A stretch of DNA of 64,000 nt from Closterium sp. NIES-65 (Eukaryota > Streptophyta > Zygnematophyceae > Desmidiales > Closteriaceae), in NCBI GenBank assembly GCA_948144175.1, contig CANXME010000519.1:29933-93932 (forward strand). Reading direction: 5' to 3'. The position numbers and the translations under genes were made by a program. The first letter of the stretch is position 1; every line of letters starts with the position of its first letter. The notes under the pieces are model-generated. The model saw nothing but the letters and a program-made list of their open reading frames with translations. It was not told the DNA's origin and ran no database searches. This document shows positions 2,516 through 46,581 of this stretch, one piece after another.

Positions 2516-3586
2516 CCCTTTTCAATAAGTTCGTTATTGCTGTCGGAATTCCTTCCCCTTCCCTTTGATCTTGGCTCACATGAGACTCTCTTATTATCCC
2601 CTCTCCCTTGCACACTTCTACCACTCCTGATCTGCCACCTCCCCTTCCTCTCGTGCTCTTTCCGCCAAATTTACCCCACTTTCTCCTTGCCCTTGCCTTT
2701 GTTTTGCTTTAGTTCCGACTCTTCCATGGCATTGCCCATGGCCCAACATCTCCACTTCTGCCTACCACTCCCTTCCCGGAAACGACATTCAACAAATGCA
2801 ATGAACCTAGCTTGCCACCCATATTTCCTGCCTGCTTCTTCCAGCAGGCGGCAATGACTTCCAGCTCTTCCCAAACTCGGCGTCTGTAAGGGAAACGAGA
2901 ACAAACACACGCACACCAGACAAACATTCCATTTGCCACCCTCTGTCCAGTCCTTACTACCTGTTTAGTTACCGTCCCACATGCCTCACCCACCTTTGCG
3001 AACCCTTGCTGTTTCACTCCTTACTGCGACCCCCCAACTTCCGAGTTACCCGCCTTCGCTTCCCACTAACCACCCCATACGCGCCTCTCACTCTTTCGTT
3101 CATGTACAAATGTACAAACACTTCCATTCTCTCGCTCTGTCATAATTACGGAGAACACCTTAGAATCCTGATAATTGTCGAAACCCCTTCCCCTTGCCCT
3201 TTGATCTTGGCTCACATATGACCCTCTTATTGTCCCCTCTCCCTTGCATACTTCTGCCTAACTTGCTTTGCCACCTCCCTCCGCTCTCATGCTCTTTTTG
3301 CCGACTTCAACCCACTTTCTCCTTGCCCTTGCATTTGTTATGCTTCTATTTTGACCCTTCCAACCACCTCCCATAATGCATTGCAGCCATCCTCAAGCGC
3401 GTCATGTGACCAGCTTGTCCTGTCCTTTCTTTCTCACTGTGAATCCTGGCCACATTCGTCATGTGATCTGCCACGCGTTTACCCTTCCCGTCTTCGAGCA
3501 CTATCACCCCCCTGCAGGCTTCACTTCCTTCACTTTCCAGCGCTGCGGCGTGAGACCGACATCTAGTGTATCCTTGCGCTGTCTCC
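2516..3586 (-). mobile_element. Degenerate gypsy tail and LTR-like remnants
   Basis: No convincing gene. Two copies of a pyrimidine-rich segment (about 2567-2730 and 3200-3370, sharing ctttgatcttggctcaca and actttctccttgcccttgc) flank a stretch at about 2741-3190. That stretch resembles 17728-18064 upstream of the K gag (shared: ggtgtctgcaaaagaaacga versus gcgtctgtaagggaaacga, then aacaaacacacgcac). The tail copy at 3346-3586 still encodes, on the minus strand, VIVLEDGKGKRVADHMTNVA, the C-terminal end of a K-type integrase. I read this as scrambled 3' ends and LTR pieces of K-family elements. Confidence 0.55.
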
Positions 3587-4455
3587 TCAAGTATACCTTT
3601 CCTCCTCATGCACTCCTTGCCCATTACTTGCGCTCCGTGCCTCCTGTCCCTGTTTGTACCTCTCAATGTTGCACAGCTGTGCCACATGCAGATTCTCTAG
3701 GGCGGCAGGTAACAGTTGACGGAGGTATGCTGCCCTTCCTTCTGCTACATCTATCCACTTCTTCGCCAAGCCCGTCGTTACAACGTCCAAAGCAGCTTTG
3801 GTGCCTCGACGAGCATCATTGGCTCCTTCCCGAAGAAGTTGTAATAAGGGGAAACGTTCTTGAGCGCGGCCTGCTTTTGAACCTGTACCATGCCATCACC
3901 CAGCACAGTTGTTTGTCCCATCCCCTTTATGCTCCTCACTGTACGCTTTCAGCCCTTTCTTCATTGTCTGTACCAGCCTCTCTGACAGCCCATCGCTATG
4001 CAGGTGATAACGTGAGGTACAGCGGTGCTTGAAGCCACTAGCTATCAGTAGCTCGTCAAATGCTCCCTTGAATTTTGTTCCCTGTTCAGTCAGCACCTCT
4101 CCACATGCCCCCAGCCAGGTAATTGCCCTTTTCTCAAATGTATCTACCACTGCATCAGCCGTCTTGTGCTCCAGCGGCTTCGCTTTCGCCCACTTGCTTA
4201 CGTGTTCCACCACTAGACGAATATGCCTTCTCCCTTTTGTTGTGACTGGCAGCTCCCCCGCGATGTCCAGTGATCATCGGTAGCCTAGGCTTACTATGGG
4301 AAGTGGTTGGAGCTCCGCATTCTCCTGTTCCATCACTGCCTGGTTCCTACAGCGCGCCTCGCAGCGCCACACCCAGTCCTTGATCTGCTTCCACCTTTTT
4401 GCCCGCCACCAACTCGTCTGCACCAGCTGCTGCGTTCGCAACGGCCCGTAGTGGT
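3587..4455 (-). pseudogene. Gypsy integrase, second K-family copy (K')
   Basis: Decayed integrase parallel to the one at 5105-5950. On the minus strand it reads LRTQQLVQTSWW, then LPIVSLGYR, a stop, SLDIAGELPV, VEHVSKWAKAKPLEHKTADA, VLTEQGTKFKGAFDELL, SDGLSERLVQTMKKGL, and after a frameshift LDVVTTGLAKKWIDVA and LRQLLPAALENLHVAQL. The first catalytic Asp (SLDIAG) and the Glu (SDGLSER) persist. The second Asp box reads LTEQGTKF where K has LTDQGTEF, so that catalytic Asp is lost. Several stops and shifts make it inactive. At 4455 it meets an integrase fragment of another lineage. Confidence 0.85.
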
Positions 4456-4680: not shown

Positions 4681-4774
4681 GATCTTGGTTGACCCTCTTC
4701 TCTTGCCCACTCCTGTGAATACCCCCTTTTTACCTCTACCCCACTTTTTCCTTTCCTTTGCCTTTGTTGTCCCT

Positions 4775-5950
4775 CTACTCAGACCCTTCCTGCCCCCTCC
4801 CATGGCGCATTGCTGCCATTGTCGCGCGCGTCATGGGACCCTGTGGTCCTCCCTTGTCCTTTTCGGTGCGAATCCTGGCCACATTAGTGACGTGGTCCGC
4901 CACCCGCTTTCCCTTTCCATCCTCCAGAACTATAACCTCTGACGGCCGCACCTCCTTCATGGTCCATCGCTGCTGTGAGAGCCCTACATCCAACGCATGC
5001 TTATGCTACCTCCTGAGGTACACCTCTTCTTCCTCCCGTACTCTTGCTATTGCCCCTTTCCTGTTCGCCTCCCGCCTCTGCTTATAACGCTCTATGTCCC
5101 GCAGCTATGCGACATAAAGGTTCTCCAGAGCCGCCGGCAGCAGGTGCCTCAGATACGCCGCCCGTGCATCCGCCACCGCCACACACTTTTCAGCTGTGCC
5201 AGTAGTCACCACATCCAGCAGAAGCCTCGGCGCTCCTACTGGCATAACGGGCTCTGTGCCGAACAGCAGATAGTAGGGTGGCACGTCCTTCAGCGCTGCC
5301 TGCTTGCTGAAACGATACCCCGCCATCACCCAGCAGAGCTTCCTGTCCCAGTCCCTCGTATGCTCTTCCCTGTAGGCCCGTAGTCCCCTTTTTACAGTCT
5401 GCACCAGTCGCTCTGTCAGCCCGTCGCTGTGCTGATGGTATCGGGATGTGGAGCGGTGCCTGATGCCGCTGGCCTTCAACAGCTGGTCGAACGCCCCTTC
5501 AAACTCGGTGCCCTGGTCCGTCAGCACCTCTCTGCATGCCCCCAGCTGTGTGACCACCATCTCCTCGAACGCCTCGGCCACCGCCTCCGCGGTCTTGTGA
5601 ACCAATGGATTAGCCTCCGCCCACTTGCTGACGTGCTCCACCATCAGGAGGATGTACCTCCGTCCCTTCTTGGTGACCGGCAGCTCCCCCGCTATGTCTA
5701 GGGACCAGCGGTAGCCCAGGCTCACTATGGGCAGCGGTTGCAGCTCCGCCTTCTCCCTCTCCAACACGGCTCTGTTCCTGCAGCAGGCCTCACACTTCCA
5801 TACCCACTCCTTGATCTGCTGTCGCATGCCTGCCCACCACCACTCTGTCTGCACCAGCTGCTGCGTCCGCGGGGGTCCGTAATGTCCTAGCTTCATGTGC
5901 ACCCCGCTTATGATGCCCTCCTGCTCTCCTGGTGGTGGGACGTGCTTCAT
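4775..5950 (-). pseudogene. Gypsy integrase of element K
   Basis: Integrase that would insert the DNA copy into the host genome. The zinc-binding N-terminus reads HMKLGHYGPPRTQQLVQ... and KCEACCRNR (HHCC). The catalytic triad is visible as SLDIAGEL (Asp), VLTDQGTEFEGAF (Asp) and SDGLTERLVQTV (Glu). The open frame covers 5950-5105, including PYYLLFGTEPVMPVGAPRLL and LPAALENLYVA. After a stop the C-terminal tail continues at 4993-4775 in another frame (VIVLEDGKGKRVADHVTNVA), like the SH3-like tail of gypsy integrases. No chromodomain is recognisable. It is the best preserved part of K. Confidence 0.9.
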
Positions 5951-6176
5951 CCCTCCCCTTTCTTAGCTGCACCTGCCCTTTGAACCAGCGGTAGTGTTTT
6001 CCCCTTGCCCGCACTCTCGCAGGCACTGCCCCCTCCTCTGTGGTTGCCCCTTGAATCCATGCCAGGGCTTCCCGGTCCTCCCAAATATCCGCAGGGCCCC
6101 CTTTCTTCTCCCCCCACGCTTGCCCCCTATCCGCCTACTTCGCCATCGTCATGAGGCAGGCTGACGGTTGCACGTC
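5951..6176 (-). other. K spacer between RNase H and integrase
   Basis: Minus-strand text is degenerate with pieces such as RARGKHYRWFKGQVQLRKGR that would precede the integrase zinc finger. No separate gene is visible. Confidence 0.5.
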
Positions 6177-6563
6177 CTATGGGTTTCTTGATAGGCCATC
6201 TACGTGCTGTGTAGTCTTCCCGCGCCGGTGCCTAATTTCGAATTCATACTCTTGTAGCTTTATCGCCCATCGGGTGTTCCTCCCCGTGAGATTTGGAGTC
6301 TGCATTAACCGTAGCAGTGGCTGGTGATAATTTACCAGGGTAAACTTATTGCCCTGCAGATACACCCAAAAGTGCTTCATCGCCCACACCACCGCCAAGC
6401 CCTCCCCTATATACGATGAGTAGTTGCCCTCCGCCGCGTTGCAGCTGTGGCTCGCGAAGGCCACCACTTTCTCCACCTCCCCTTTCATCTGCACTAGCAC
6501 CACTCCCATGCCTACGCTGCTCCAGTCCGTGTACAGCGTGAATGGCAAATCCGCTCTTGGCAA
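6177..6563 (-). pseudogene. Gypsy RNase H of element K
   Basis: RNase H domain removing the RNA strand during reverse transcription. It reads LPRADLPFTLYTDWSSVGMG (first catalytic Asp in YTD), VVAFASHSCNAAEGNYSSY, EGLAVVWAMKHFWVYLQGNK and NYHQPLLRLMQ, then YEFEIRHRRGKTTQHVDGLS, the usual RNase H end with the H-x-D of HVDGLSR. The canonical TDH of the third block has become VNYHQ. It lies one frame away from the RT end at 6780-6570, so a frameshift near 6560 separates the two. It is the middle part of the K pol. Confidence 0.88.
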
Positions 6564-6569
6564 TTCCAG

Positions 6570-7575
6570 CGCTGCCCTGTTTTTCCACGGCTCCCATCAG
6601 GTCCTGCACCGCCCTCTCCTGGTCTGGCCCCCATTCCCACTCCTTGTTCTCCCTGAGTAGCTGGTTCAGCGCGGTGGCTCGGCTGCTGAAGTTCGTCACG
6701 AACTTACGGTAGTAATTCAAGAACCCCAGCAGCGCCCGTAACGAGGTTCTGTCCTTCGGCGTAGCCACTCGGTCCAGCACTTCTACTTTCGCCTTCTGAA
6801 TCCCAATCTTCCTCCCTTCGACCTTGAAACCGAGGTACTCTACCGTGGTCTACCCGAATTCGCATTTCTTCGGATGGCAAGTTAGCCCGGCTCCCTGTAT
6901 GGTGGTCAAGGCTACTTCCACGTCCTTCACGCATGACTGGTTGTCTGTACTGAACGCGTCAATGTAACACGCGGCGTTCTGGACCTCCCGCAGCACCCGA
7001 TCCATGATACGTTGGAATTCCGGGGACGCCGACTTCAAGCCAAACGGTAGGAAGTTCCATTCGTACTGCCCGTCCGGCCCATGAAAAGCCGTCTTCTTTT
7101 TGTCCACCCCTGATATGGGGATCTGATTATATCCCTGCCGCAGGTCTAGCATGGAGAATACTAGCGCTTCCGCTAGCTTGTCAAAAATTTCATCCGGCAT
7201 CGGCGTCTGGTACCTGTTCATGACCGTAACCTTGTTCAGCCCTCTGTAATCTCCCCACATTTGCTTAGAGAGTACTTTTCCCGTCACATCTGTCCGCGCC
7301 ACCACCACCGTCGCCGCTGCATAGTCTGAGCTGGATTTCCTAATGAAGCCTGCCTCCGAGAGCTCCTGACACTTCTCCTTGCGTATCGATGTCTCTTTCC
7401 CTGTCATCCGCCGCCGCCACTGGTACACCAAGATCTCCATGGTCAGTTCTAGGGTGACCTCTGCCATGTTGCATCTTCCCACCTCTTTCAGCGAGTAGGC
7501 GAAGGCCGCCTAATGCTTGGCAAGTACCCTTTTTAACTCAGCTGCGTCTTCTTTAGCCATGCCTTCCCCTATCAC
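6570..7575 (-). pseudogene. Gypsy reverse transcriptase of element K
   Basis: Reverse transcriptase in three pieces. The N-terminus (7575-7483) reads AKEDAAELKRVLAKH, a stop, AAFAYSLKEVGRCN. The main body (7482-6850) has TLELTMEILVYQWRRRM, CQELSEAGFIRKSSSDYAA, MWGDYRGLNKVTVMNRYQTP, MLDLRQGYNQIPI and FLPFGLKSASPEFQRIMDRV. The catalytic box reads CYIDAFSTDN where gypsy RTs have Y(I/L)DDI, so one catalytic Asp is lost. The thumb region (GFLNYYRKFVTNFSSRATAL) follows at 6780-6590 in another frame. The upstream coding text continues on the far side of J, at 14694 and beyond. Confidence 0.88.
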
Positions 7576-7610
7576 CCACTCCTTCTCACCCTCCTCCCGT
7601 CACGGTCGTT

Positions 7611-7728
7611 CCAGTCAAACTATCATGCTGTGTGAGTTGTCTAGTCTGTCGTGGGGTAGCCTATATGGGGTACAACCCAATTAGGGTCGTACTTGTATCA
7701 ACTTTCTGCTAAATACAATCATTCCTGC
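7611..7728 (+). repeat. 5' LTR of element J (about 118 bp)
   Basis: Aligns with 14579-14693 (shared gtggggtagcct, atggggtac, cccaattagggtc, acttgtatcaactttctgct). The outer end has lost the TG. No tRNA-Met-like primer site follows; the LTR runs straight into the leader, so the junction is rearranged. Confidence 0.78.
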
Positions 7729-9229
7729 TAGTGACCGACTGCGGTTACCGCGCTACCCCACGCCTTGCCCTGTGATGCGCCGTTAGCGCGCGCCCTGCCC
7801 TGCCCTGCCTTGAGTCACATTGCCCGTGCACGCCCTGCCCCGCGTCACGTTGCCCCGCACACGCCCTGCCCTGCCCCGCGTTGAGCTGCCCCGCGTCGTG
7901 GCCCATGCAGCCCGTCACGTCGCGCGCCCCTGCTGCCCGTCACTCCGTGCGCCCCTGCTGTCCGTCGCGTCGCGCCGCCCACGCACCCTTGCTGCCCGTT
8001 GCGTCGCCCGTGCGAGGTGCCCCAGCCCGTCGCGTCGCCCGTCCGCCCTGCCCTTGTCCGCCGCGTCGCCCATGCGGGCTGCCCCAGCCCGTCGCGTCGC
8101 CCGTCCGCCCTGCCTGCCCGTGCGCCGCCCCTACCTGCTCCGCGTCGCCCCGCCCCGCGCACGCAACCCGCGCGCCGCCCCTTGCAGCCCGCGTGCCGCC
8201 CGTCTGCAGCACGCGCGCCGCTCTGCTGGCAGTGCGCTGCCCTCTGCAGCCCACGCACCGCCCTTGCAGCCTGCGCACTGCCCTGCTGGCCGCGTAGGAC
8301 CGTTTTTTTGGGCCCACCATTAGCTAGTGACCGACTGCGGTGACCGCGCTACCCCACGCCCTGCCCTGTGCTGCGCCATCAGCGCGCGCCCTGCCCTTCC
8401 CTGCCTTGAGTCACACTGCCCGTGCACGCCCTGCCCCGCGTCGCGCTGCCCCGCGCACGCCCTGCCCTGCCCCGCGTAGCGCTGCCCCGCGTCGTGCGCC
8501 CCTGCAGCCCGTCACGTCGCGTACCCCTGCTGCCCGTCACTCCGTGCGCCCCTGCTGTCCGTTGAGTCGCACCGCCCATGCGCCCCTGCTGCCCGTCGCG
8601 TTGCCCATGCGGGCTGCCCCAGCCCGTCGCGTCGCCCGTCCGCCGTGCCCCTGTCCGTTGCGTCGCCCGTGCAGGCTGCCCCAGCCCGTCGCGTCGCCCG
8701 TCCGCCCTGCCTGCCCGTGCGCCACCCCTGCCTGCTGCACGCTGCCCCTGCCTGCCCCGTGTCACGTCACCCCACGCACGCCACCCTCGCGCCGCCCTCA
8801 GCCCGTGCGCCGCCCGTTTGCAAATACGCGAGCCGCTCTGCTGGTAGTTCGCTGCCCTCTGCAGCCCACGCGCCACCCTTGCAGCCCCGCACGTCGCCCT
8901 GCTCGTTGCGTGCCGCCCCTGCCTGCCCGTGCACTGCCCTTTGCGTCCCGCACCCTGCCCTATTTGTTCGCGAGCCGCCCATCTGCAGCCCGTGCGCCAC
9001 CGTGGCAGCCTGCGCGCCACCCTGCAGCCCGTGCGCCGCCCTTGTAGCCCGCGCGCTGCCCCTCTTCCAACCCCACGCCCCGTCCTGCCTTTCCGTGCAC
9101 CGCCTCTGCTCTGGCCGCGCGCCGCTTTTCCGTGACCGTGCGCCACCCTGACCTACCCTAGTGCCTGCTCGCCACCCTGCCTTCCATCCGTGCTGCCCTA
9201 CTAGTTGCGCGCCTCTTTGCTTGCCCGCT
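7729..9229 (+). repeat. GC-rich leader of J with tandem duplication
   Basis: Non-coding 1.5-kb leader of irregular repeats of cgtcgcccgtccgccctgcc type. A unit of about 596 bp is duplicated: tagtgaccgactgcggt starts at 7729 and again at 8325. Just before the second copy lie a T-run and GGGCCCACC (8310-8318), which in other Cop-1 elements stand right after the primer site. The long Arg/Ala/Pro open frames on both strands here are composition artefacts. Confidence 0.75.
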
Positions 9230-10610
9230 ATGAATTCTCTTCGTAGTAGCGGTGGGAGTGGTGACGGCGGTGGTGGCAGCAGTGGGAGTGGTGGCAGCCG
9301 TAGTAGCAGTCGCTGTGGAGCTGTTCAGTGGGGAGTTTCTCGTGGTGGCCAGATGCAGCTATAGCGGCGTCCGCGCGTGACCCTTTCGCCCCAGCAGCTA
9401 CATGAGTGGTACGCTAGTAGGAGTGGTGGCAGCGGCAGCTGTGGCAGTCGCTGTGCAGCTGTTCAGTTGGGAGTTTCTAGCGGGGGCCTGGTGCAGCTGC
9501 AGCAGCATCCGCGCGAGACCCTTATGCCCCAGCAGCTTCGTGAGTGGAACGCTCAGCGTGGGGCGTCTTGGATTAGTGCTCGCTGCCCGTACGTCATTCG
9601 CACAGGTGATTGGGCTGGTCAGACTTGCGGGACAGTTGGTCACACACAGTCCCGCTGCTTCTCCTGACCGAGCGACACCTGGCGCGCAGATTTTGGCGAC
9701 GCGGCTGAGCTTCCCCGCTACCTAGAGCTGCTTAGGCAGGGTGTGGATAACTTTGCTCTAGACTATGACGCTATCCTGACTGCCATTTATGCTTCGACTA
9801 TTGGTACCAAGGGTGACTATTACCTGTATGTGCCGCTCGACCCTAGTATAGAGGCTACTGCTCTAGGTGCTAGTGAGTCTGCTCTCTCATGTACTACGCC
9901 TGCTGAGGCCTTCCACACCTTCACGCTTGACCCAGGTGCTTCCCGCTGCTTCTTTTGCAACAGCACCACAGTCACACCACTCACAGCACCGGTTGCAATC
10001 TTTCTGGCTGACCCCTCTTGGGGACCGGTTCTTGCACGTTCCTCCACTATTCTCCTGTGTCCGGCGGTCCCGTCTGGCTCACTATCAGGTCTTCACCTCC
10101 CCTTGTTCTCTACAAACTTGGTGAGCAACGCCGTCCTTCAGGATGCTTGGGTTGATACCTTTACCCCTAGAAAACAGCGTGTGGCGATCTGCACGTGTGC
10201 ACGGACGGGCCGTCACCTTGCCACGTTCACCCGTCAGCCTAGGTCGAGCCTGTACACACTGACTACTGAGCCTCCTCAGATAGTTGCGTCTGCGTCCGCG
10301 TCATGTCAGCTAGCAGCCCTCTGTTCGTGCCGCCTCCTGTCGCACCAGACTCTCCTCTGGCACCACCGCCTTGGTCACCCCTCCCAGCCACGCCTCCGTG
10401 GCATGCACTCCCGCCTCCTTGTCTCTGGTCTTCCCAGGTCTCTGCCTTCCCTCCCACCATCGCCTGCCCCTCCGTGCCTTCCCTATGTCGAGGGGCGGCA
10501 GCGCGCCGCTCCTCACTCTTCCTCGTTTCCCCCGATGATTGCTCCCCTGCAGACTCTCCACATGGACGTGTGGGGCCCAGCCCGCGTCTAGGGACAGGGC
10601 TGAGAGCAAT
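9230..10610 (+). pseudogene. Short Gag and protease region of J
   Basis: Start of the J polyprotein. The ATG at 9230 (MNSLRSSGGSGDGGGG) is followed by a Gly/Ser-rich stretch that is duplicated with its PQQL(R/H)EW motif (near 9386 and 9520). Next comes a zinc-knuckle-like CPYVIRTGDWAGQTC-GTVGH-TQSRC (9583-9660), with 13 residues between the first two cysteines. The protease follows: HTFTLDPGASRCFF has DPG where the active site is normally DSG. Then come the pre-integrase motif WHHRLGHPSQPRLRG and the integrase start DVWGPARV. Stops at about 9362 and 9665 and frame changes disable it. The capsid-like N-terminus present in C and D is absent, as in H. Confidence 0.85.
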
Positions 10611-11340
10611 AATCCCTGCTGGCTGCTGACGACTATCCGCGTTACACCACAGAATTCCCCTTGCGCAGAAAGGGGAAGGTCCCTGATGTCTTGATCCCTT
10701 GGATCCGTGCTTTTCGTCTTCAGCTCCGCGAGTGGTTCGACACGGACCTTCCTATCCTGCTTCTGCACTCTAACAGAGATGGTGAGTTTCCCTCCAACCC
10801 CAGCGCCGCATTGGCTTAGTGATGGAGGTCGCTCGTACCTCCATGATCCATGCGGCTGCTCCCCATTTTCTGTGGCCGTTCGTGGTCGAGTACGCTGCGC
10901 ATCAGCTCAACCTCTGGCCCCGTGTCTCCTTGCCAACCTCGTCTACACTACCTTGGACGGGAGAGGTTGGCGATGCATCGGTGTTCCGGGTCTGGGACTG
11001 TCGTGCTTTTGTCCGTGATACCTCCGCGGACAAGCTATCCTCGTGCGCCATTCCCTGCGTCTTCCTTGGCTTTCCCCCTGACGCGCCTGGCTGGCATTTT
11101 TACCACCCCACCTCGTGCTGTATCCAGCCCTCTCAGAACGTCACGTTTGATGAGTCTATTCCCTTTTACCATCTCTTCCCCTACCGCACTGTCCCTCTCC
11201 CCCTCCTGCTGCTCTTCCTCGCTCCAGGTCCCCCTCCGGTAGACCCCCTCCCCCCTCAGGGTCCTGCTCCTTCATGTGTGTCTCAGGTAGACCCACTCCC
11301 CTTGGTTGAGCCTGTCAAGGTGACTGGTGACTTTGGTGCT
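10611..11340 (+). pseudogene. Integrase of J with internal deletion
   Basis: Copia integrase remnant. Text such as LHSNRDGEFPSN (second Asp changed to Asn) is followed directly by the equivalent of RRIGLVMEVARTSMIHAAAP. About 90-100 bases found in C and H are missing, and with them the SPQQNG(I/V)AER segment carrying the catalytic Glu. The C-terminal part is well kept: WPFVVEYAAHQLNLWPRVSL, CVFLGFPPDAPGWHFYHPTS, VTFDESIPFYHLFPY. It cannot be functional. Confidence 0.86.
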
Positions 11341-12545
11341 TCTCGAGGTGCTATGTCTGGGGGTGTTGAGCCGTGGATGCGGAGCCTGGAGGTGCTGAGC
11401 TTGCGAGTGCTGAGCCCGGGAGTGCTGAGCCTGAGCATGCGGAGCCTGGGGGTGCTGAGCCTGTGGGTTTGGAGCCTAGGAGTGCTGCGTCTGAGCGTGC
11501 GGAGCTTGGGGGTGCTGAGCCTGTGGGTGCGGAGCCTATTGGTGCTGAATTTCTGGGTGCTGAGCCTAGGGGTCCTGCGTCTACTGTACGGGAGCCTCTC
11601 TCACCACAGCAGCTGCGCGAGTGGTATGCTTGGCGCACCCGCCTTCGGATTCGTGCTGTTGGAGCTGGAGGCACTACTGCTGGAGGCGCTGGCACTAGAG
11701 GTACTGGTGCCGCTGGTGCTGGAGGTGCTGGTGGTGCTAGCACTGCTGGTCCCGGGGGTGCTCGTGCTGGAGGCGCTGGAGCTGTCGGAGCTGGTGGTGC
11801 TACTGTTGCTGGAGGTGCTGGAGGTGTTGGAGCTGCTGGTCCCGGAGGTGCTCGTGCTGGAGGTACTGGAGCTGCTAGAGCTGGTGGTGGTGGTGCTGCA
11901 GGAGGTGCTGGAGGTGCTAGAGCTGCTGGTCCCGGAGGTGCTCGTACTGGAGGTACTGGAACTGCTAGAGCTGGTAGTGGTGCTGCTAGTCTCGAAGGTG
12001 CCTGTACTGGAGGTACTGGAGCTGCTAAATCTGGTGGTGCTGCAAGCACTGGAGCTGGGGGTGCTGGAGCTGTCGGTACTGGTACTGGAGGCGCTGTGCG
12101 GCCGCAACCGTACTTTGTTCCACTGCTTCGCCAGGCTCTTGGTCTCCCGTCTTCTACTGGCCTTACCTTGCCTCTATTGTGTCCACCGTCAGACCATTCG
12201 CAGCCACAGTTACAGCCAGCCTCCCCACTACCTGCTCCTTCTCCATACACTGAGCAGACAGACTCTCATACAGAGCGTTGTGAGCCTGCGTCTTGCCCTA
12301 CCTTGCCTATTTGCGCTGGTTGCACTGGTAGTCGTGGTCCGCGTCCGCGTCCTCCTCTTGTCCCCGGCACTAACAGTATGACACTTCGTTCTTCCTCTGT
12401 TCCACCGCGAGTTCCCCTGCCATCTCCTCCTGCGTCCTCTGTTCCTGACGGTCCAGACCCTGAGTCTAAAATTATTTCGTGCTGCCAGTCCTGCTGTCAC
12501 ACGTCTTCTAGCCATTGTTATCACCAACCCGTCGTTTGAGTCCAC
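11341..12545 (+). pseudogene. EPGGA / Gly-Ala-rich linker of J
   Basis: Linker between integrase and RT. In the 11373 frame it reads as repeats of A-E-P-G-G type, then REPLSPQQLREWYAWRTR (about 11590-11640), then about 150 residues rich in Gly, Ala and Thr, then RPQPYFVPLLRQALGLP. It is encoded by 15-bp units like gagcctgggggtgct. The overlapping Leu/Val-rich and poly-Ser frames are shadows of the same repeats. Confidence 0.75.
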
Positions 12546-14349
12546 TGCTGCGTTTGCCCTAGTTGCTGAGCTTATCGACTTTGATGCTACCTGTCGTCTC
12601 GACTATGCCGCTAGTCTTCTTGCTGCGTCTGAGTCTGTCTGTCCGAAGTGAGTGTGCTCTTGGCATGGACGACCTTGAGGACAGGCAGGAGGATTTTGAG
12701 TGTCTTGCGGGTGCTGCACCTCATCTCGTGTCCATGCTGCTTGCACCTGAGGGAGACCAGGATGCTCCAGACATCCCGACCCCACGCTCTTACGCAGAGG
12801 CGATTACGGGTCCCTACTCCTCTCAGTGGCAAAAAGCCATGGACGCAGAGATGGCATCCTGGAAGTCCACAGGCACTTACGTCGATGTAGTTCCCCCTTC
12901 TGAGGTGAACATAGTCGATGGCATGTGGATTTTCAGGGCGAACCGGCCGCCGGGTTCTCCGCCAGTGTTCAAGGCTCGTTACGTTGCTATACGCTCTAGT
13001 CGGCGCCACGAAGTTGACTTCTTCCAGACCTTCTTCCCTACCCTGAAGATGACCACTCTTCAGGTGCTGCTGCACGTCGCCGCTCAGCATGACTATGAGC
13101 TTCACTCTCTTGACTTCCGCACAGCTTTCTTATAGGGCACTCTGCACGAGGAGATCTAGATGCGCCGCCCACCTGGCTTCGCTAGGTCGGTTCCGGTAGG
13201 TATCCGGTGGAGCCCCCGGCGGCCAGTCTACGGTCTCCGCCAGGTGCCTCGTGAGTGGCACGACACACTAAGGATGACACTTGCGGCTCTTGGGTTTGCT
13301 CCTTCGACTGCTGACCCGTCGCTGTTTCTCCGCACCGACACTTCGCTGCCGCCGTTCTACATCCTCGTGTACGTCGACGACTTGGTTTTTGCCACTGCTG
13401 ATACTGAGGCACTAACTCTAGCAAAGTCGGAGCTGTAGAAGAGACACACATGCACAGACATGGGTGAGCTGCGCAGCTATCTTGGCTTGCAGATCACCCA
13501 GGATAGAGCACGACACGCCATCACCCTCACTCAGTCACACATGGTGCAGCAGGTCCTTCAGCATTTCGGCTTCTCTTGGCCCTCGCCACAATCCACTCTT
13601 CTGCCTACCGGTCACTCGCTCTGAGCTCCACCTTCGGTCCGTAGAGCCGAGTGGCCCGTATCCAAAGCTTGTGGGCTGCCTCATGTACCTGATGACCTGC
13701 ACTCGACCTGACCTTGCTTACCCTCTCATCATGCCGGCACACTATGTTGCGCCTGGGAGACACCGACAAGAGCACTGGGAGGCCGCTAAGAGGGTGTTGC
13801 GCTACTTGTGCAGTACGTCGGGCATGGAGCTCGTGCTTGGAGGACGGGGTCTAGTTTTCCTCACTGGACACGCAGACGCGTCTTGGGTTGACGACTTGGC
13901 TACGCAGCGATCGTCATAGGGTTACACTTTCAGCCTTGGCTCTGGTTATGTTTCTTGGCAGTCTACCCGCTTGTCTTCTATTCTCAGTTCCAGTTGTGAC
14001 GCTGAGATCTACGCAGGGGCCATGGCTGCACAGGAATTACGCTGGCTCACCTACCTGCTAGCCGACTTGGGAGAGCGGCCTAGTTCTCATCCAGTTCTGT
14101 ACGTAGACAACAAGGCCATGATTGCTTTGTGGCCAGGAGCACAGACTGGAGCACAGGAAGAAGCGCATCGCTCTGCGTTACTTCCTTGCTCGAGAGTTGC
14201 AGCAGCGTGGTCTGGTTTGTCTTGCTTACGTGCCCACTCGGGCCAACACTGCTGATTTATTCACCAAGGCACTTCAGCCTTGTGATCATTAGCGTTTCTG
14301 TACTGTTTTAGGCCTTGTGCCTACTATGCCTCACTTGCTCACTTTGTGA
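12546..14349 (+). pseudogene. RT/RNase H of J
   Basis: Copia RT and RNase H with many stops. Recognisable blocks are MDAEMASWKSTGTYVDVV, GMWIFRANRPPGSPPVF, LHSLDFRTAFL then a stop, RRPVYGLRQVPREWHDTL, and an intact YVDDLVFATADT (about 13369). RNase H pieces are GHADASWVDD (13869) and YVDNKAMIALW (14101). The natural end is MPHLLTL and TGA at 14347. Among the stops, TAG at 14288-14290 stands where C has CAG (DHQR). It is older than the RT copies of A, C and D. Confidence 0.88.
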
Positions 14350-14555
14350 CTTTGCTTGTACTGTGATCTATATACTTGTTCTTGCATGCTTACACATGCT
14401 AGGTTGTGATCACTGTACTGCTTATTCCCATTTAAATAACTCCGCATGTAAACTAGCCTTGTGGCCATTTGCTGGTGCTCAGAGTGTGTGGTGACTTCTT
14501 GATCCACCCAGAGCTTGCTTTGCTTTTCTTGACTGGTCTTGTGACCCCTTGTTCT

Positions 14556-14576
14556 CCCCCACTTTTCCAATGGGGG
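14556..14576 (+). promoter_or_regulatory. Primer-site hairpin of J
   Basis: CCCCCA and TGGGGG around the loop cttttccaa, just before the 3' LTR; the stem is unchanged although the loop differs from A and C. Confidence 0.58.
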
Positions 14577-14578
14577 TG

Positions 14579-14693
14579 TGTCAAACTTCATGCTGTGTGT
14601 GCTGTGTAGGCTGTAGTGGGGTAGCCTGTATGGGGTACGACCCAATTAGGGTCATACTTGTATCAACTTTCTGCTCAATGCATTCATTCCTGC
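14579..14693 (+). repeat. 3' LTR of element J (about 115 bp)
   Basis: Starts TGTCAAACTT right after the G-run and ends cattcctgc before tcgtt. The canonical CA end is not visible; the boundary rests on the duplication and on alignment with 7611-7728. Confidence 0.78.
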
Positions 14694-14698
14694 TCGTT

Positions 14699-15233
14699 AT
14701 TTTCCGACACTTCGCCCCCCTGCTTCGGCCGTTCTGGATCGTCCGCTCGTATTGTCGCCTGTGGCGCCCCTTCTATTCCCTCAACCTCCCTTGCATCCTG
14801 CGTCTCCGCTCGTGTGTGATCCTCCTCCTTTGTCGCAGCCATGAGCGCCAAGTCCCGAGATCTGAACTCTCGATCATAGCTCCCTGGTTTTCTGCCTCTC
14901 AATGGCATCTTCTAGCCAGCTAAAGTCCCCGCGCTTCTTGTCCACCGCTTCTTCCCCTCGGTCTCCTGGGAGCCAAATCTCCGCCTGTTCCGCGTACACT
15001 GCCGGTCTCTTGTCATCCTCTTCCCAGGGGTACACCCACCTCCTCTCTAACGAATGCCCCCACTCATGCTGCATCTCTTCGTGATCTTGGATTTCTCCTA
15101 ACATGGTCCGTGCCAGTGCCTCCTTTTCCGCTGACGGTTCCACCGCCGCCGCTTTGTCCCGCTTCCGCTCCCAACGCAGCTGTGAGTGGTACATCCTAAT
15201 TGTTGCCACCAGCCAGTGTATGACGTTAAGATC
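14699..15233 (-). pseudogene. K linker downstream of the methyltransferase
   Basis: Open minus-strand text after the ENV box: VIHWLVATIRMYHSQLRWER, EKEALARTMLGEIQDHEEMQ, HSLERRWVYPWEEDDKRPAV, QAEIWLPGDRGEEAVDKKRG, later RSRDLALMAATKEEDHTRAE and GGEVSENN at the J insertion. It is charged, with no motif I can name. I see no methyltransferase motifs VIII to X, so the second half of that enzyme is absent or beyond recognition. A frame change occurs near 14874. It probably served as the spacer to RT. Confidence 0.55.
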
Positions 15234-15680
15234 CACATTCTCTATGATGTAGAGCACGTCTCCTTAGATCCGCTTTATCAGCCTTAGCATCCGTACGAGC
15301 TCTCGAGACAGGCTGCTCCGCTCGTCCCTCGTGCCTCTGCCAGCTCCCGCTCGAGAGTAACCGTGACTTTCCCATCCAGCAATCACCACGTCGATCCTCC
15401 CCCAATGCGTAGCTGATGCTCATCTATCTGGCGTATGTCGCAGGCCCCACATTGCATACTCTGCTCCATCGTTAGCGAGCAAAACTGGTGTGGGTATCTC
15501 TTGTGCAGGTTGTCCGCGTGCCTCACTGCCATCTTGGCTGCCTGGATGCCTCTCTCAACCCGGATCCATTTCTCCACGCATATACCCGACTTCAGCACCG
15601 CTGCCAGCCCGGTTCCTATGCCCCCGAAGAGATCAAGCACTACCGTAGGCCCCAACAACCTCTTCGTGTTGGTGCAATGG
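15234..15680 (-). pseudogene. C5 cytosine DNA methyltransferase-like domain in K
   Basis: This domain sits between protease and RT of the gypsy element. Motif I, the S-adenosylmethionine loop, is VVLDLFGGIGTGLAAVLKSG (about 15643-15584), followed by VEKWIRVERGIQAAKMAVRH. This resembles DNMT3-type enzymes, which have LFDGIATG...LKDLG and then an acidic residue. After a 1-base frame change near 15400 comes WGRIDVVIAGWESHGYSRAG, matching motif IV (xxDLVIxGxPCQxxS) with ESH in place of PCQ at 15363-15371, so the catalytic Cys is Ser. Then RDERSSLSRELVRMLRLI, an in-frame TAA, and motif VI YIIENV (ENV at 15234-15242). Such enzymes methylate cytosine C5; this copy should be dead. The fusion to the protease frame upstream supports an element-encoded domain rather than a random host fragment. 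Confidence 0.85.
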
Positions 15681-16420
15681 TATGCCTCTCTCGGCTCCCT
15701 CCGCACGAAGCGAACCGGTAGTGTGCCGATGGGCCCATCATTCTCCCAGTCGCATATCCGACACCGCACCTTCTCCTCCCACATGTATATGGTTGCGCCG
15801 ATTCCGAACAGGTGCTCTACCCCTATCAGCAGAACGAAGTCTTCCGATTTTGACACTCCGCAGTACACCCGCAACGTGCAGTTCTCTGAGTTTCTCGGAT
15901 TCAGCATCAGCGCCATCGACCGCCGAGTCTTAGGCATCCACTTAGCCTCTCCACCATCCGCGGTCATCAGCAAATACCCTTCTGCTATCAGCCGCCCTAG
16001 CTTGTGTAGCTGTAGTTTCTCCACCAAGCGTCTCCCAATGAGCACGTGAGCCACCCCCGTATCCACAATTGCCCGTTGCGCCGCCAGTCCTCCAATTGTG
16101 ATTGCCCCTGCTGCAATCGTTAGCACTGTGGCCTGGCACGTCATCCTTTCCCGTGGATGCTGGTACGCTGCCCCATCCACGTCCACGCTCTCATTGGCCC
16201 GCCTCCCCGGTCCGTCTTCCCGCCGTTCATCTTCTGGAAATACTAGCCTCCGCGCGGCCCTCCGCAAGCCCAGCTCATCACGATTGCGCACTGGCTGAGC
16301 CATCAGCATAAAATCCGGTTCGTTCAGCTCTTCCTCCTCCTGCGCCACCATGGCGGGCTGCTTTTGCTCTGACGCCTCCAGTTCTGCCAGCTGGGCGCGC
16401 AAGCGCGCCATAGTGGCCTG
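15681..16420 (-). pseudogene. Gypsy aspartic protease of K with coiled-coil lead
   Basis: Minus-strand frame 16537-15383. The real part seems to begin with a short coiled coil (MARLRAQLAELEASEQKQ, near 16411) and an acidic stretch. The protease core follows: TIAAGAITIGGLAAQRAIVD, with DTG at 16063-16055 as active site, then VAHVLIGRRLVEKL, LIAEGYLLMTADGG and FVLLIGVEHLFGIGATIY. Retropepsins cut the polyprotein; one Asp per subunit is expected and is present. The frame then runs without a break into the methyltransferase motif I, which shows the two were one protein. The residues before 16420 in this frame are a shifted reading of the zinc knuckles. Confidence 0.85.
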
Positions 16421-16485: not shown

Positions 16486-16626
16486 GCCTTTCCTCCCGCA
16501 GCAAGCACAGATGGGTGCTCATGGGCATTCTCTCCACATGTGGTCACAACTCCCGCACAACGAACATGCCGCCGGGTTCCGACAGTCCTGGCGTAGATGC
16601 CCCGGCAAGCCGCAATTGTGATAGCA
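16486..16626 (-). pseudogene. Three tandem zinc knuckles of K Gag
   Basis: On the minus strand, outside the frames of gag and protease: CYHNCGLPGHLRQDC, then CSLCGSCDHMWREC, a TGA, then CACCGRKGHPKAIA. The first has one extra residue between its first two cysteines, the second is a perfect CX2CX4HX4C, and the third lacks the last Cys. These would bind the element RNA. Confidence 0.78.
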
Positions 16627-17340: not shown

Positions 17341-18064
17341 CCTTTACATCTATGCAAGCACCGTCGTACGTTCCGCTCGCTCCTTTGCTGGGCCCATTCC
17401 GCCCTTCCGTTCCCCCCGTCTCTAGTGGCTGATTCGTCGCCTGGTTATTCTCAACTCTACGCTTCCCGCGTGCTTCACCTTCACTCCTTCTACAGTCGAC
17501 CCGACCGAAATTGCATAGACTGCGTGTTTGTAAGCTCTAATCTTTCCTATGTCATTCCGACTGCAGCTATGGCTCCGTTGGAAACTGCTTATCTTGAAAG
17601 GAATTGCAGTAATTCACGAAAACAAACACGCAGTGGCAGTCCGATGGCCGAGGATTCCCCCATAAGCTGCTCACTGAAACCCTAGCCTAACAATTGTTGT
17701 TCTTCCTGACTACTAGCTAGCCATCCACCCTGTGCTTCTGCCTACCTCCATCTGGCGATCCCCTCTTCCAGCTTCCTCCTGGATTCGGTGTCTGCAAAAG
17801 AAACGAAACAAACACATGCACACAACACACACATTATCCTACTGCCAACCCTGCCAGCATATCTCCCTTCGGCAAAGCCCGCCGCCGTGTCGGTCATTCA
17901 AACTCTTGGTGCCCTCCACACTGCCGAGTGCCGCGCCCTGCTTCACCACTGTAGTTGCTGTTCCTCGGTGTTGAGTGATTCGCTTATTCACAAATGTACA
18001 AATACTCCACCACACCTCTCGCTACACCCTCTGTCAGCATTTCTTATGTGTTAACCTCAGATTT
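17341..18064 (-). promoter_or_regulatory. K leader / LTR-like region
   Basis: Non-coding. It holds a telo-box-like aaaccctag (17677-17685) and a stretch (about 17728-18064) similar to 2741-3190, which suggests LTR sequence. No terminal repeat or primer site could be fixed. It is cut at 18064 by element B. Confidence 0.45.
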
Positions 18065-19158
18065 CGTTTGGTGCTAATTCACATTGCACGACATCCTGCC
18101 GTCTGTTTGTATGAGTATGCGTGTGCGAATGCATTTGGGTGTGAACGGAATGTTCGTGTGTTTGTTTGCTTTTGCAATTTTTGCTTTAAGCATTTGCAGG
18201 TACTCGCGCATTGTGTGCTTCAGCATAACATTGTACGCGCTATGAATCGTACGAGAAAAGAGGACGAGCTCGCAAAGGAACCCAAGATGGAAGCTTTGCA
18301 GTTCGGTTGAATTGATTGCGAAGATTCAGTTCTAACCAACTCGAAATTGTACTGTTTTGTTTGGTTGACTATAGTGTAGCAGGGGAGGCACTATAGGGGT
18401 ACAATTTAGGTGAATTTTGGATGTTGTTTATCTGTATCTGCATGCTATAGGGCCAGGGGAAACCAGCGGAACCAGCATTTGGCTGGTTGGGCAAAGACAA
18501 AACAGGTTCTGTTTTTTAGGACCTGAACCTGGTTGATGTTTTCCCAGGTTGGAAAAACAGAACCAGAGGTTGTTTACCAACCTACCACCTGCTGTTTCGT
18601 CCAGCAAGGTTGGTTCTGTTGCTTGGAATTATTTGGGATCATCCCTGGTTGTTCCCGGGTTTATTTCCAAGGTCCTTGCTAGCTATAACTATTTATTCCT
18701 TCTGTGTTTGTACCTGGATATAGTCAATTTGATTCAAGCAAATTCCTCCCTTCCTGGAAGTTCGTTTCTACGCGGTGCAAGGGCGGAATGCTACCTGAGT
18801 CAACGCTAGTATGCTAGCACTCCAACGCTAGGCAAACGCTGTCCGAGCCATAACTTCGTAATGGCATAACTTTTCGCAAGGCAACTTGGTTAATTTTAAA
18901 GATCTTGGAGCGAGCTTCGATATAGGAAATTCTCAGCTTAATCCGATCGACGGTCTGCACGATACGCTGCGCAATGTTCAAGGTACTCTTCTTATTTTGG
19001 CTAAGTCATTCTTGACTCCTCTCTCTACAAACTCGGACCCGAGGATAGGGGCTGGTCTTGTACCAGACACCCATGGACCCCTGGAAGGGACCCCGAGGAG
19101 AGGTTTTAAGTTTGATTATGTCTTAATAGCTTGAGTTTATTAGGCCCTTACACCAAGA
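18065..19158 (+). repeat. 5' LTR of element B (1094 bp)
   Basis: Aligns throughout with 30731-31822. The first base pair is CG instead of TG, the end ccaaga instead of ccaaca. It holds repeated ggttctg/cagaacc blocks around 18480-18615. A short open frame in it is shared by all Cop-2 LTRs but has no recognisable product. Confidence 0.9.
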
Positions 19159-23700: not shown

Positions 23701-26649
23701 CCAGGTCCCCCCCCGGTTGACCCCCTCCCCCCTCAGGGTCCTGCCCCTTCAGGTGTGTCCCAGGTAGACGCGGTCGAGCCTGTCGAGGTTACTGGTGACT
23801 CTGGTGCTGCTGCGGGTGCTGAGCTTGGGGGTGCTGAGCCTGGGGGTGCTGAGCCTGGGGGTGCGGAGTCTGGGGGTGCTGAGCCTGGGGGTGCTGAGCC
23901 TGGGGGTGCTGAGCCTGGGGGTGCGGAGTCTGGGGGTGGTGAGCCTAGGGGTACTGAGCCTGGGGGTGCTGAGCCTGGGGGTGCTGAGCTTGGGGGTGCT
24001 GTGCCTGGGGGTGCTGTGCCTGGAGGTGCTTCGTCTCGCCGTGAGCCACTCTCCCCACAGGAGCTGCGTGAGTGGTTTGCCAGGCGCTGGAGGCGTACTG
24101 CTGGTGCTGGAGGTTCTTCGCCTGCAGAGGGTGCCACTGCCGCGGGTCCCGGAGGTGCTCGTCTTGGGAGTACTGGAGCTGCTGGGTCTGAGGTTTCTCC
24201 TGGAGCTGGTGCAGCTGAGGGTGTTGGCACTGGGACTGCCGCTGGCGGTCCGCCTGGCAGTGCTCCTGGTGGTGCTGCTGGAGGTTCTGGAGCTACTGGA
24301 GGTGCTGCTCGAGGTGCTGCTGGAGCGGGTACTCCTGCTGGGGGTACTAGTTCTGTCCCTGCTGTTTCTGGCGTCGCCGCGCGGCCCCGACCGTACTTCG
24401 TTCCGCTCCTGCAGCAGGTTCTTGGTCTTACACCTTCTCCTGGTCCTCCTCCTCCTCCCTTAGAGGGTCCGCGGCCTGTCCAGTCACAGCCACCGCTACA
24501 GCCTGCCTCCCCTTTGCCTGCTCCTTCTCCCTACGCTGGTCCGACTGGAGGTCTTACTGAGCGTCGTGAGCCTGCGTCTCGTCCTGCGTCGCCTGTTCGT
24601 ACTGCGCGCGCTAGTGGTCGCGGGTCGCGTCAGCGTCCTCCTCCTGTCCCTGGCACGCACCGGATGTCACTGCGTCCGTCCACTGCTCCTCTGCGTGCCC
24701 CTTTGCCTTCTCCTCCTGCTTCCTCTCTTCCTGCACTTGCCGACCCGGAGTCGGACTCTCTTCGTGCTGCCGGTCCTACTGTCACGCGTCTCCTTGCTAC
24801 TGCTGTCACTGACCCTTCCTTCGAGTCGTCTGCTGCGTCTGCCCTTGTCACTGAGCTTGTCGACTTTGCTGCGCGCTGTCGTCTAGACTACGCTGCCAGT
24901 CTTGTCGCTGAGTCTGAGTCTGCCTGTCCTCCGTCCGTCGGGGGTGAGTGTGCCCTTGGCACGGACGTCCTTGAGGACAGGCAGGAGGAGTTCCAGTGTC
25001 TGGCCGCCGCTTCACCTCATCTCGCGTCTGTACTGCTAGCCCCTGAGGGAGACCCGGATGCACCAGACATCCCGACTCCGCGCTCTTACGCGGAGGCGAT
25101 AGAGGGTCCCTACTCCTCTCAGTGGCAGGCAGCTGTGGATGCAGAGATGGCTTCCTGGAAGTCCACAGGCACCTACGTTGGCGCTGTTCCCCCTCCTGGG
25201 GCGAACATAGTCAGTGGCATGTGGATTTTCAGGGTGAAGCGGCCGCCGGGTTCTCCGCCTGTCTTCAAGGCGCGTTACGTGGCTCGTGGCTTCAGTCAGC
25301 GGCAAGGGGTTGACTACTTTCAGACCTTCTCCCCCACCCCGAAGATGACCACTCTTCGGGTTGTACTGCACGTTGCTGCTCACCGTGACTACGAGCTCCA
25401 CTCTCTCAACTTCAGCACCGCTTTCTTGCAGGGCAGCCTGCACGAGGAGATCTGGCTGCGTCGCCCACCTGGCTTCACTGGGTCTTTCCCTCCTGGTACC
25501 CAGTGGAGCCTCCGGCGTCCAGTCTACGGTCTCCGCCAGGCGCCACGTGAGTGGCACGACACACTGAGGACTACGCTCGCGGCACTTGGGTTTGCTCCTT
25601 CTACTGCCGACCCGTCGCTGTTTCTGCGCACCGACACCTCGCTGCCGCCGTTCTACATCCTCGTGTACGTCGACGACTTGGTCTTTGCCACAGCTGACAC
25701 TGCTGGACTCGCCTATGTGAAGTCCGAGCTGCAGAAGAGACACACGTGCACTGACCTGGGTGAACTGCGTAGCTACCTTGGCTTGCAGATCACCCGGGAC
25801 AGAGCACGCCGCACCATTACCCTGACTCAGTCACACATGGTGCAGCAGGTCCTTCAGCGCTTCGGCTTCACGTACTCCTCGCCTCAGGCCACTCCTCTGC
25901 CTACTCGCCACTCGCTCTCAGCTCTGCCTTCGGATGAGTCCGTAGAGTCGAGTGGCCCGTTTGCGGAGCTTGTTTGCTGCCTCATGTACCTGATGACCTG
26001 CACACGACCTGACCTTGCATACCCTCTTAGCATTCTCGCACGCTATGTTGCTCCTGGGAGACACCGACCAGAGCACATGGCTGCAGCGAAGAGGGTGTTG
26101 CGCTACCTGTGCAGTACGTCGGGCATGGGGCTAGTGCTTGGAGGGCGCAGTCCAGTGGTCCTCACTGGGCACGCAGACGCTTCTTGGGCTGACGACCAGG
26201 CTACGCAGCGGTCGTCACAGGGTTACACCTTCAGCCTTGGTTCCGGCTCTGTTTCGTGGCGGGCTACCCGCTCGTCTTCTGTTCTCGGCTCCAGTTGTGA
26301 GGCTGAGATCTACGCTGGGGCTATGGCTGCACAGGAGTTACGCTGGCTCACCTACCTGCTGACCGACCTTGGAGAGCAGCCTCGTTCTCCTCCAGTCCTG
26401 TACGTAGACAACAAGGCCATGCTGGCCTTGTGTCGAGAGCAGCGACTGGAGCACAGAACGAAGCACATTGTTCTCCGCTACTTTCTTGCTCGTGAGCTAC
26501 AGCAGCGTGGACAGTTGCGACTTGCGTACGTGGCCTCTGAGGCCAACACTGCTGATGTCTTCACCAAGGCACTTGCGCCTTGTGATCATCAGCGTTGTTG
26601 CACGCAGTTGGGTCTTATGCCTGTCTTGCCTCACTTGCTCTCCTCTTGA
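20734..26649 (+). pseudogene. Gag-Pol polyprotein of C, three in-frame TAG codons
   Basis: One frame of 1972 codons from ATG 20734 (MATPIVLAFDAEGRAIDF) to TGA 26647, interrupted only by TAG at 21157, 21391 and 22894. Domains in order: capsid-like Gag (20734-21500); poly-Gly (21538-21765); PQQLREWY (about 21843); zinc knuckle C-X13-C-X3-H-X4-C (21898-21969); protease DSGAS (22288-22302); pre-integrase WHHRLGHPS; integrase with DVWGP (22960), HSDRGGEF (about 23161) and NGIAERR (about 23263); (EPGGA)n linker (23797-24040) with a second PQELREWF (about 24055); RT with YVDD (25666-25677); RNase H to HLLSS. All catalytic residues I can check are present. Siblings have Tyr, Glu and Gln at the three stop positions. 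There is no Gag/Pol frame break, so the products would come from one polyprotein. Confidence 0.95.
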
Positions 26650-30730: not shown

Positions 30731-31822
30731 TGTTGGGTGCAAATTCACATTGCACGACATCCTGCCGTCTGTTTGTACGAGTGCGTGTGCGAATGCCTTT
30801 GGGTGTGAACAGAATGTTCGTGTGTTTGTTTGCTTTCGCGATTTACGCTTGAAGCATTTGCAGGTACTCGCGCATTATGCGCTTTGGCACAACATTGTAC
30901 GTGCTATGAACAGTACAAGCAGAAAGGACAAGCTCGCAAAGGAACCCAAGATGGAAGCTTTGCGGTTCGGTTGAATTGATTGCGCAGATTCAGTTCTATC
31001 CAACTCGAAATTGTACTGTTTTGTTTGGTTGACTATAGTGTAGCAGGGCAGGCACTATACGGGTACAATTTCAGTGAAGGTTGGATGTTGTTTGTCTGTA
31101 TCCGCATGCTACTGGGCTAGGGGAAACCAGCGGAACCAGCATTTGGCTGGTTGGGCAAAGACAAAACAGGTTCTGTTTTTTAGGACCTGAACCTGGTTGT
31201 TGTTTTCCCAGGTTCAAAAAACAGAACCAGAGGTTGTTTACCAGCCTACCACCTGCTGTTTTGTCCAGCCAGGTTGGTTCTGTTGCTTGGGATTATTTGG
31301 GATCATCCTTGGTTGTTCCCAGGTTTATTTCCAAGGTCATTGCTAGCTAGAACTATTTATTCCTTCTCTATTTGTACCTGGATATAGTCAATTTGATTCA
31401 AGCGAATTCCTCCCTTCTTGGAATTTCGTTTCTACACGGTGCGACGGCGGAATGCTGCCCGAGTTAACGCTAGTACGCTAGCACTCCAACGCTAGGCAAA
31501 CGCTCTCCGAGCCATAACTTTGTAATGGCAGAACCTTTGGCGAGGCAACTTGGTTCATTTTGAAGCTCTTGGAGCGAGCTTCGATATAGGAAATTCTTAG
31601 CTTAATCCGATCGACGGTCTGCACGATACGCTGCGCGATGTTCAAGGTACTCTTGTTATTTTCGATAAGTCATTCTTGACTCCTCTCTCTACAAACTCGG
31701 ACCAGAGGATAGGGGCTGGTCTTGTACCAGGCACCCAGGGACCCTCGGAGGTGACCCCGAGAAGAGGTTTTAAGTTTGATAAAGTCTTAGTAGCTTGAGT
31801 TTATTAGGCCCTTACACCAACA
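30731..31822 (+). repeat. 3' LTR of element B (1092 bp)
   Basis: Begins TGTTGGGTGC after ggggagtg and ends CCAACA, so the termini form the inverted repeat TGTTGG/CCAACA. Followed by the target copy gattt. Confidence 0.93.
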
Positions 31823-33473: not shown

Positions 33474-33846
33474 GGAAAATATGATGGCGCAAATTTAAAA
33501 CGTCTCGACCATCCGGCACCAGGGGAAATCGCCAAGAAGAAGACTCCGCAAAACAAGACCCTGCACCGATCGGGAAACTCTAGCCGTACACCCCGACAAC
33601 CACCACTCACAATGGTGAAGGGAGCTATTGTAGCTTTGGTGAAGGTGGAGTACACCCGAACCCACTACTAGTATTTTTCGCTCGCTAAAGTGTCATCCAT
33701 TACAAGCCTGGGGGTGCTGAGCCTGGGGGTGCTGAGCCCGGGGGTGCTGCGACTGGGGGTGCTGAGCCTGGGGGTGCTACGCCTGGGGGTCCTGAGCCTA
33801 GGGGTGCTACGCCTGGAGGTGCTGAGCCTGGAGGTGTGGAGCCTGG

Positions 33847-46576: not shown

Positions 46577-46581
46577 GTTTG

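Follow-up and report, generated by a model that had tools for sequence, protein, structure and literature searches.

The minus strand of the stretch analysed here (Closterium sp. NIES-65, contig CANXME010000519.1, positions 29,933 to 93,932; its 64,000 nucleotides are called the window below) raises the question of whether a Ty3/gypsy retrotransposon has carried a C5 cytosine methyltransferase (MTase) between its protease and its reverse transcriptase (RT). A sequence-only reading of the locus had proposed such an element as a member or relative of the charophyte gypsy lineage, and our results bear out the core of this proposal: the MTase domain lies between protease and RT in a charophyte host. 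Judged from its sequence, the window copy is a decayed Ty3/gypsy element with the order gag, protease, C5 MTase, RT, RNase H and integrase, split by a copia-type element and almost certainly part of a Closterium genome. Its enzyme is dead, yet the family keeps MTases with motifs I–X and a DNMT3-like fold. The system is of a known kind, in a host for which we found no report, and its sister copies share an odd conserved active-site substitution.

A 384-aa minus-strand frame (16537-15383) runs without interruption from the protease DTG (16063-16055) into VVLDLFGGIGTG, which contains motif I (15643-15608). The motif-IV-like block GRIDVVIAGWESHGYSRAG sits in a different frame, within a piece at 15419-15267 in which WESHGYSR occupies 15374-15351. 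This piece is followed by a stop (15266-15264) and then by YIIENVD, with ENV at 15242-15234. The continuous frame, the xIDVVIAGW..GYSRAG block one frame change later and the subsequent ENV are all where the sequence-only reading had placed them. Its assignment of motifs I, IV and VI to a C5 MTase was confirmed with a profile built from nine Closterium relatives, the window being excluded. Searched against 1507 open reading frame (ORF) pieces of the window, this profile matched at 1.4e-32 (109 bits) and 4.3e-20 (68 bits), whereas five control windows, shuffled by two-base blocks, gave nothing better than 0.71 (5.4 bits). With eight non-Closterium rows as the profile, the two matches were at 1.9e-17 and 3.9e-13, against a best shuffle of 2.1. 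Chance resemblance of the motifs was ruled out by these leave-out profiles and shuffled windows. The third, ENV-bearing piece is not significant alone (E=0.4), and its position is set by alignment to the sisters.

Related proteins (P) and loci (L) are cited by number. Protein searches scored only the 8000 candidates with the most shared words. Within this scope, the 384-aa frame matched seven proteins with E no higher than 1, every one of them from Closterium NIES-53, NIES-54 or Naga37s-1. A nine-row profile (A1) retrieved 33 proteins at E<=1e-8. Closterium accounts for 20 of these, and the remaining 13 include P0040 from Mesostigma viride, P0029 from a metagenome-assembled genome (MAG) labelled Obscuribacterales, and metagenome proteins. 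Motifs I, IV, VI, VIII and IX/X stand in order, by eye, in P0023, P0028, P0029 and L001, an open-framed relative described below. Several predicted proteins preserve the neighbourhood of the enzyme. P0001, from Closterium, joins an MTase piece (80% identity to the window motif-IV piece) to an RT region; P0010, P0011, P0012, P0014 and P0016 combine the MTase with RT and/or RNase H domains; and P0002 and P0026 pair it with a protease match under the Pfam cut-off. In P0040, a protease-like stretch lies N-terminal of the MTase and weakly resembles that of L001 (24% over 120 residues, E 5e-06 in a four-sequence database). Given that many of these gene models span decayed copies and skip parts, the fused proteins are evidence of order, not of working genes.

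The window copy taken alone, broken and with half of the domain gone, might suggest that a fragment of a host gene was caught by chance in one gypsy copy. This explanation, whose probability we put close to nil, is already contradicted by several Closterium proteins and L001, which have the domain in the same place and domain order, by their grouping in one clade and by a loss of 170 residues in exact register relative to three sisters. At the level of proteins, the Closterium sister copies carry the MTase at the same place, so that the refuting outcome named in the sequence-only reading, sister copies lacking the domain, was not observed, and the host-fragment candidate was rejected.

The assignment to Ty3/gypsy follows from the domain order protease, RT, RNase H and integrase, with the integrase last, which was found in both the window element and L001 (Table 1). 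The MTase side of the window copy extends to about 14759 and the RT side starts at 7608. The copia-type element in between is a nested insertion that splits the copy. Because the MTase and RT halves are collinear with P0001, we infer that they belong to one element. The proposed placement between protease and RT is thus correct in element order, although the RT is not adjacent and lies at 7608-6850, beyond the inserted copia. No pair of long terminal repeats (LTRs) was detected by blastn at default settings, and relaxed settings gave just the 70% LTR-like pair at 17713-17857 and 2807-2950.

Table 1. Features of the gypsy element and its nested insertion, in window coordinates
Feature	Position	Strand	Basis
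Possible 5' LTR remnant	17713..17857	-	70% match to 2807-2950, E=7e-14, relaxed blastn
gag-like ORF, 169 aa	16831..17340	-	ORF list; no Pfam match; Closterium P0004 residues 109-150 match 17185-17060 at 64%, in another frame
gag zinc knuckles (CCHC)	16522..16626	-	PF00098 E=7e-05; Closterium P0005 aligned across 16710-16474, 66%
Aspartic protease region, DTG 16063-16055	15674..16069	-	PF13650 E=6.5e-04, under cut-off; P0004 80% identity over 16057-15674
MTase N-terminal piece with motif I	15399..15646	-	Protease in same frame; profile match 1.4e-32 (ORF 16543-15386); 62% identity to sister P0023 over 91 residues
MTase motif IV piece, other frame, stop-terminated	15267..15419	-	Profile match 4.3e-20; PF00145 E=0.031; tblastn with P0023/P0025
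Motif VI (YIIENVD)	15231..15263	-	Alignment to sisters; alone E=0.4 in profile search
Motif X tail (LNVIHWLVATI) and conserved post-MTase linker, fused to ENVD	14877..15230	-	66% identity to P0025 from residue 270 onward
Copia-type element nested in gypsy between MTase and RT	7611..14697 (approximate ends)	+	Terminal repeat; copia-type ORFs by eye
RT of gypsy element	6850..7608	-	RVT_1 8.7e-18 at 7509-6850; 70% identity of 7608-7069 to P0001 residues 396-575
RNase H	6177..6596	-	PF17917 2.7e-28
Integrase (H2C2 and rve core)	5105..5962	-	PF17921 5.4e-14, PF00665 4.5e-11
Possible 3' LTR remnant, own or a related copy's	2807..2950	-	Partner of 17713-17857 in relaxed blastn

In the window copy, the D of ENVD directly joins motif X at its L (or V), a gap of exactly 170 residues relative to each of P0023, P0025 and P0013. 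The loss is in-frame and takes motif VIII, the target-recognition region, motif IX and most of X, so that only motifs I, IV and VI and the end of motif X are retained. The catalytic Cys of the relatives is replaced by Ser, and motif IV reads Glu-Ser. Given the frameshift, the stop, the deletion and the Ser, the enzyme of this copy is dead and, as it stands, cannot have been active. What follows ENV does not continue the enzyme, since these residues are missing, and the suggestion that the element methylated its own DNA fails for this copy as it now stands.

For working copies of the family we favour, as fairly probable, the reading that the window holds a decayed relic of a gypsy element that packages an MTase and methylates its own DNA or target chromatin. 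From its position, the MTase would be translated within the Gag-Pol precursor, freed by the element protease and packaged in the particle alongside RT and integrase. It could then methylate cytosines of the new element cDNA, or of chromatin at the insertion site, and the methylated new copy would thereby resemble resident methylated DNA. Methylation of cDNA has been proposed for dinoflagellate elements (PMC5890265).

For the MTase assignment itself, plain Pfam searches are weak: neither the 384-aa frame nor the motif-I piece gave an MTase match, and the motif-IV piece reached only E=0.031 against PF00145, under the Pfam cut-off. In the relatives, PF00145 matches above the cut-off in P0001 (2.3e-08), P0002 (6.9e-08), P0023 (3.7e-05) and L001 (6.8e-12). 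The identification therefore relies on the relatives' profiles, which match where Pfam alone would have missed the enzyme. Other observations weigh against methylation by working copies. The element is not CpG-depleted (observed/expected 0.87 for gag-protease-MTase and 0.75 for RT-integrase, against 0.73 for the window), and the mutational trace of self-methylation is thus absent here.

The active site also counts against it. To our knowledge, Pro-Cys in motif IV is a near-universal hallmark of C5 MTases. The window copy departs from it with Glu-Ser, and Glu precedes Cys in all 19 Closterium proteins whose motif IV could be read, as well as in P0019, P0034 and P0040, for a total of 22 of 31 relatives. 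The other nine have the canonical Pro-Cys, as do L001 and 13 of 13 comparison rows outside the clade (nine phage rows, P0042, DNMT3A, HhaI and DNMT1). The Cys count comes from a script pattern limited to Glu or Pro followed by Cys or Ser, which read motif IV in 30 of 42 proteins; the 12 non-matching proteins were re-inspected more loosely, this second look adding P0017 and P0035, and exclusion of P0042, outside the clade, left the 31, some of which are outside the tree. A single origin of Glu-Cys is compatible with the data (p-AU, approximately unbiased test, 0.371; 25 rows, with DNMT1, HhaI and phages L020, L021 and L023 dropped). With this substitution, the enzyme of Closterium may have a changed activity or none.

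The same counts favour the alternative that the domain is kept for a non-catalytic role, such as binding DNA, RNA or a host methylation factor, and that the substitution has put an end to methyl transfer, or modified it, in the Closterium/Mesostigma type. We consider this unlikely: Cys, ENV and the motif VIII HRxR are retained in most copies that cover them, the fold is complete, and one would expect the Cys to disappear from a domain freed to act as a scaffold. Membership of the C5 MTases stands despite Glu-Cys, since the profile, the fold and the other motifs support it, and the strictness of the Pro-Cys motif could be tested on a C5 MTase family in which Glu adjoins the catalytic Cys.

The MTase of KnitGypsy, a charophyte element, gave no methylation in yeast, which also counts against active methylation, although the authors call the result inconclusive; its Ka/Ks is below 0.2, indicating purifying selection (both from PMC5890265). 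De novo CG methylation, cited in the sequence-only reading as shown for such enzymes, was shown in yeast only for the dinoflagellate SymbioDIRS-Dnmt3 enzymes (PMC5890265).

Regarding the origin of the enzyme, the catalytic-domain fold of the relatives is closest to DNMT3, and the best solved-structure matches, by sequence and by fold, are DNMT3. The DNMT3-type resemblance noted earlier holds in this respect, whereas placement in the tree beside animal DNMT3A rather than beside DNMT3-like phage enzymes is unsupported. Animal DNMT3A/B/C catalytic domains show 22-26% identity in structural alignments, and the retrotransposon clade, which has no visible ADD or PWWP domain, is separate from them in the tree. 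That tree comprises 17 of the 42 proteins (16 retrotransposon-type plus P0042), L001, nine phage regions and three references, with human DNMT3A alone representing DNMT3. It leaves out 25 partial, broken or near-duplicate proteins, L019 (a two-part coding sequence), DRM, CMT, plant and algal DNMT3, and KnitGypsy.

Methylation of RNA rather than DNA, with element RNA or the primer tRNA as substrate, seems to us quite improbable. DNMT2-type C5 MTases act on tRNA, and the element packages RNA, but the fold is DNMT3-like and DNMT2 is a weak match in the sequence search (4h0n, E=0.59). The possibility of RNA was raised in PMC5890265 for an enzyme borne by a long interspersed nuclear element.

Capture of the MTase from a phage or bacterial Dcm-like gene, instead of a host DNMT3, has more in its favour, and we regard it as somewhat doubtful. 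The L001 MTase matches the phage profile phrog_116 (2.6e-25, residues 17-323) and scores 58-76 bits against nine phage enzymes but 55 against DNMT3A. DNMT3A itself reaches up to 107 bits against its best phage matches, compared with 38-71 bits against the retrotransposon clade, and groups in the tree with phage-type rows outside that clade (83/84, not starred). However, DNMT3A is a long branch in a tree that lacks plant and algal DNMT3, the scores of P0023 are mixed (52 bits for DNMT3A, 38-64 for phages), and the top solved structures are DNMT3. The Klebsormidium enzymes, moreover, are placed as a divergent DNMT3 clade in PMC5890265.

Some DNMT3 members lie embedded in LTR and DIRS retrotransposons, a finding reported in 2018 for streptophytes and dinoflagellates, as stated in PMC12344493. 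The nearest described system is KnitGypsy-Dnmt3 of Klebsormidium nitens (de Mendoza et al. 2018, PMC5890265), which shares a charophyte host, an LTR gypsy element and a DNMT3-like MTase with conserved key residues inside the Pol polyprotein ORF. The present family differs in its Closterium host and in the Glu-Cys, instead of Pro-Cys, at motif IV of the Closterium type, and the window copy is dead; the likeness drawn here is to the published description. SymbioDIRS-Dnmt3 of Symbiodinium is likewise a retrotransposon-borne DNMT3-like enzyme adjoining an RT, but in a DIRS element with a tyrosine recombinase, and was acquired independently according to the same paper. Among the open PMC matches listed, judged by titles and abstract starts, none reports MTase-carrying retrotransposons in Closterium or Mesostigma. 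In the Closterium genome paper (PMC10407611), a word search found gypsy, copia and methyltransferase zero times.

MTase-carrying mobile elements are wider in green algae than we found reported. In viral contigs, 29 stretches fitted the Glu-Cys pattern, but tblastn identified no relative among them; with the joint Glu/Pro pattern, 12 of 47 stretches were relatives, and the motif-IV-like matches in those 12 loci were all Pro-Cys. Genome contigs yielded two relatives among 69 stretches, L001 and L002, the latter without a motif-IV pattern by script. We tentatively suggest, at somewhat less than an even chance, that one old MTase-gypsy lineage runs across streptophyte algae, namely Closterium, Mesostigma, the uncultured organisms behind L001 and its relatives, and probably Klebsormidium. 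In this view the MTase was captured early and has kept its place between protease and RT ever since, and part of the lineage now uses an active Glu-Cys enzyme. If so, elements would have modified their own DNA, with a change in chemistry or specificity, over a large part of the history of the green lineage. Transposons are normally silenced by cytosine methylation, a logic that MTase-carrying elements would invert. Members outside Klebsormidium, together with the open-framed L001, make it testable whether such elements methylate their own cDNA and whether they gain from methylation.

L001 (CADCWO010000201.1), the clearest relative, is a contig of 9285 bp that was assigned to a Synechococcales MAG; despite this cyanobacterial bin, it is evidently eukaryotic-type retroelement DNA. 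Its ORF1 (1162 aa, truncated by the 5' end of the contig) encodes gag, zinc knuckles (by eye), a protease (below cut-off) and the MTase. A stop separates the MTase from the RT, and ORF2 (1047 aa) encodes RT, RNase H, integrase and a PHD finger. The contig ends, 1-127 and 9159-9285, are identical over 127 nt, which suggests a circular assembly path through collapsed LTRs. L001 shares with the window element the order gag, protease, MTase, RT, RNase H and integrase and a similar protease, and its MTase is 34-42% identical to P0023 and P0013. It differs from the broken window copy in its canonical Pro-Cys, open frames and C-terminal PHD finger. P0029 is about 80% identical to L001 over 334 residues. 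The PHD finger follows the integrase core (6459-6593, ORF2 residues 990-1034, PF00628 4.3e-10) and is perhaps an integration-targeting module. No PHD-like stretch was seen by eye after the window integrase in frames 5400-2300.

Degraded relatives of the gypsy element also occur nearby: a second partial copy of its integrase region (3294-4453 versus 4726-5884, 71% identity) and an RNase H fragment at 2708-2352. No MTase was found near either by tblastn with the first seven Closterium proteins. Another repeat begins just beyond the gypsy 5' end and is present in four copies of about 92% identity (18066-18700, 30732-31364, 46577-47167 and 52270-52889), with a fifth, partial match (86%) on the opposite strand at 58278-58561.

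The nested copia element has a 119-bp terminal repeat (7614-7732 and 14580-14697, 89% identity), and no target-site duplication was found by eye. Upstream of its coding part, at 7727-8911, a GC-rich unit of about 590 bp is duplicated in tandem (86%). Long 15- and 9-nt tandem repeats occur within copia-type elements, for example at 11340-12099, 23749-24090 and 33662-33823. The copia 3' coding end is present in five copies within the window. Residues 1-99 of Closterium P0004, a copia-type tail, match four places at 88-95% identity, a fifth, split place at 71-86% and a sixth at 25%.
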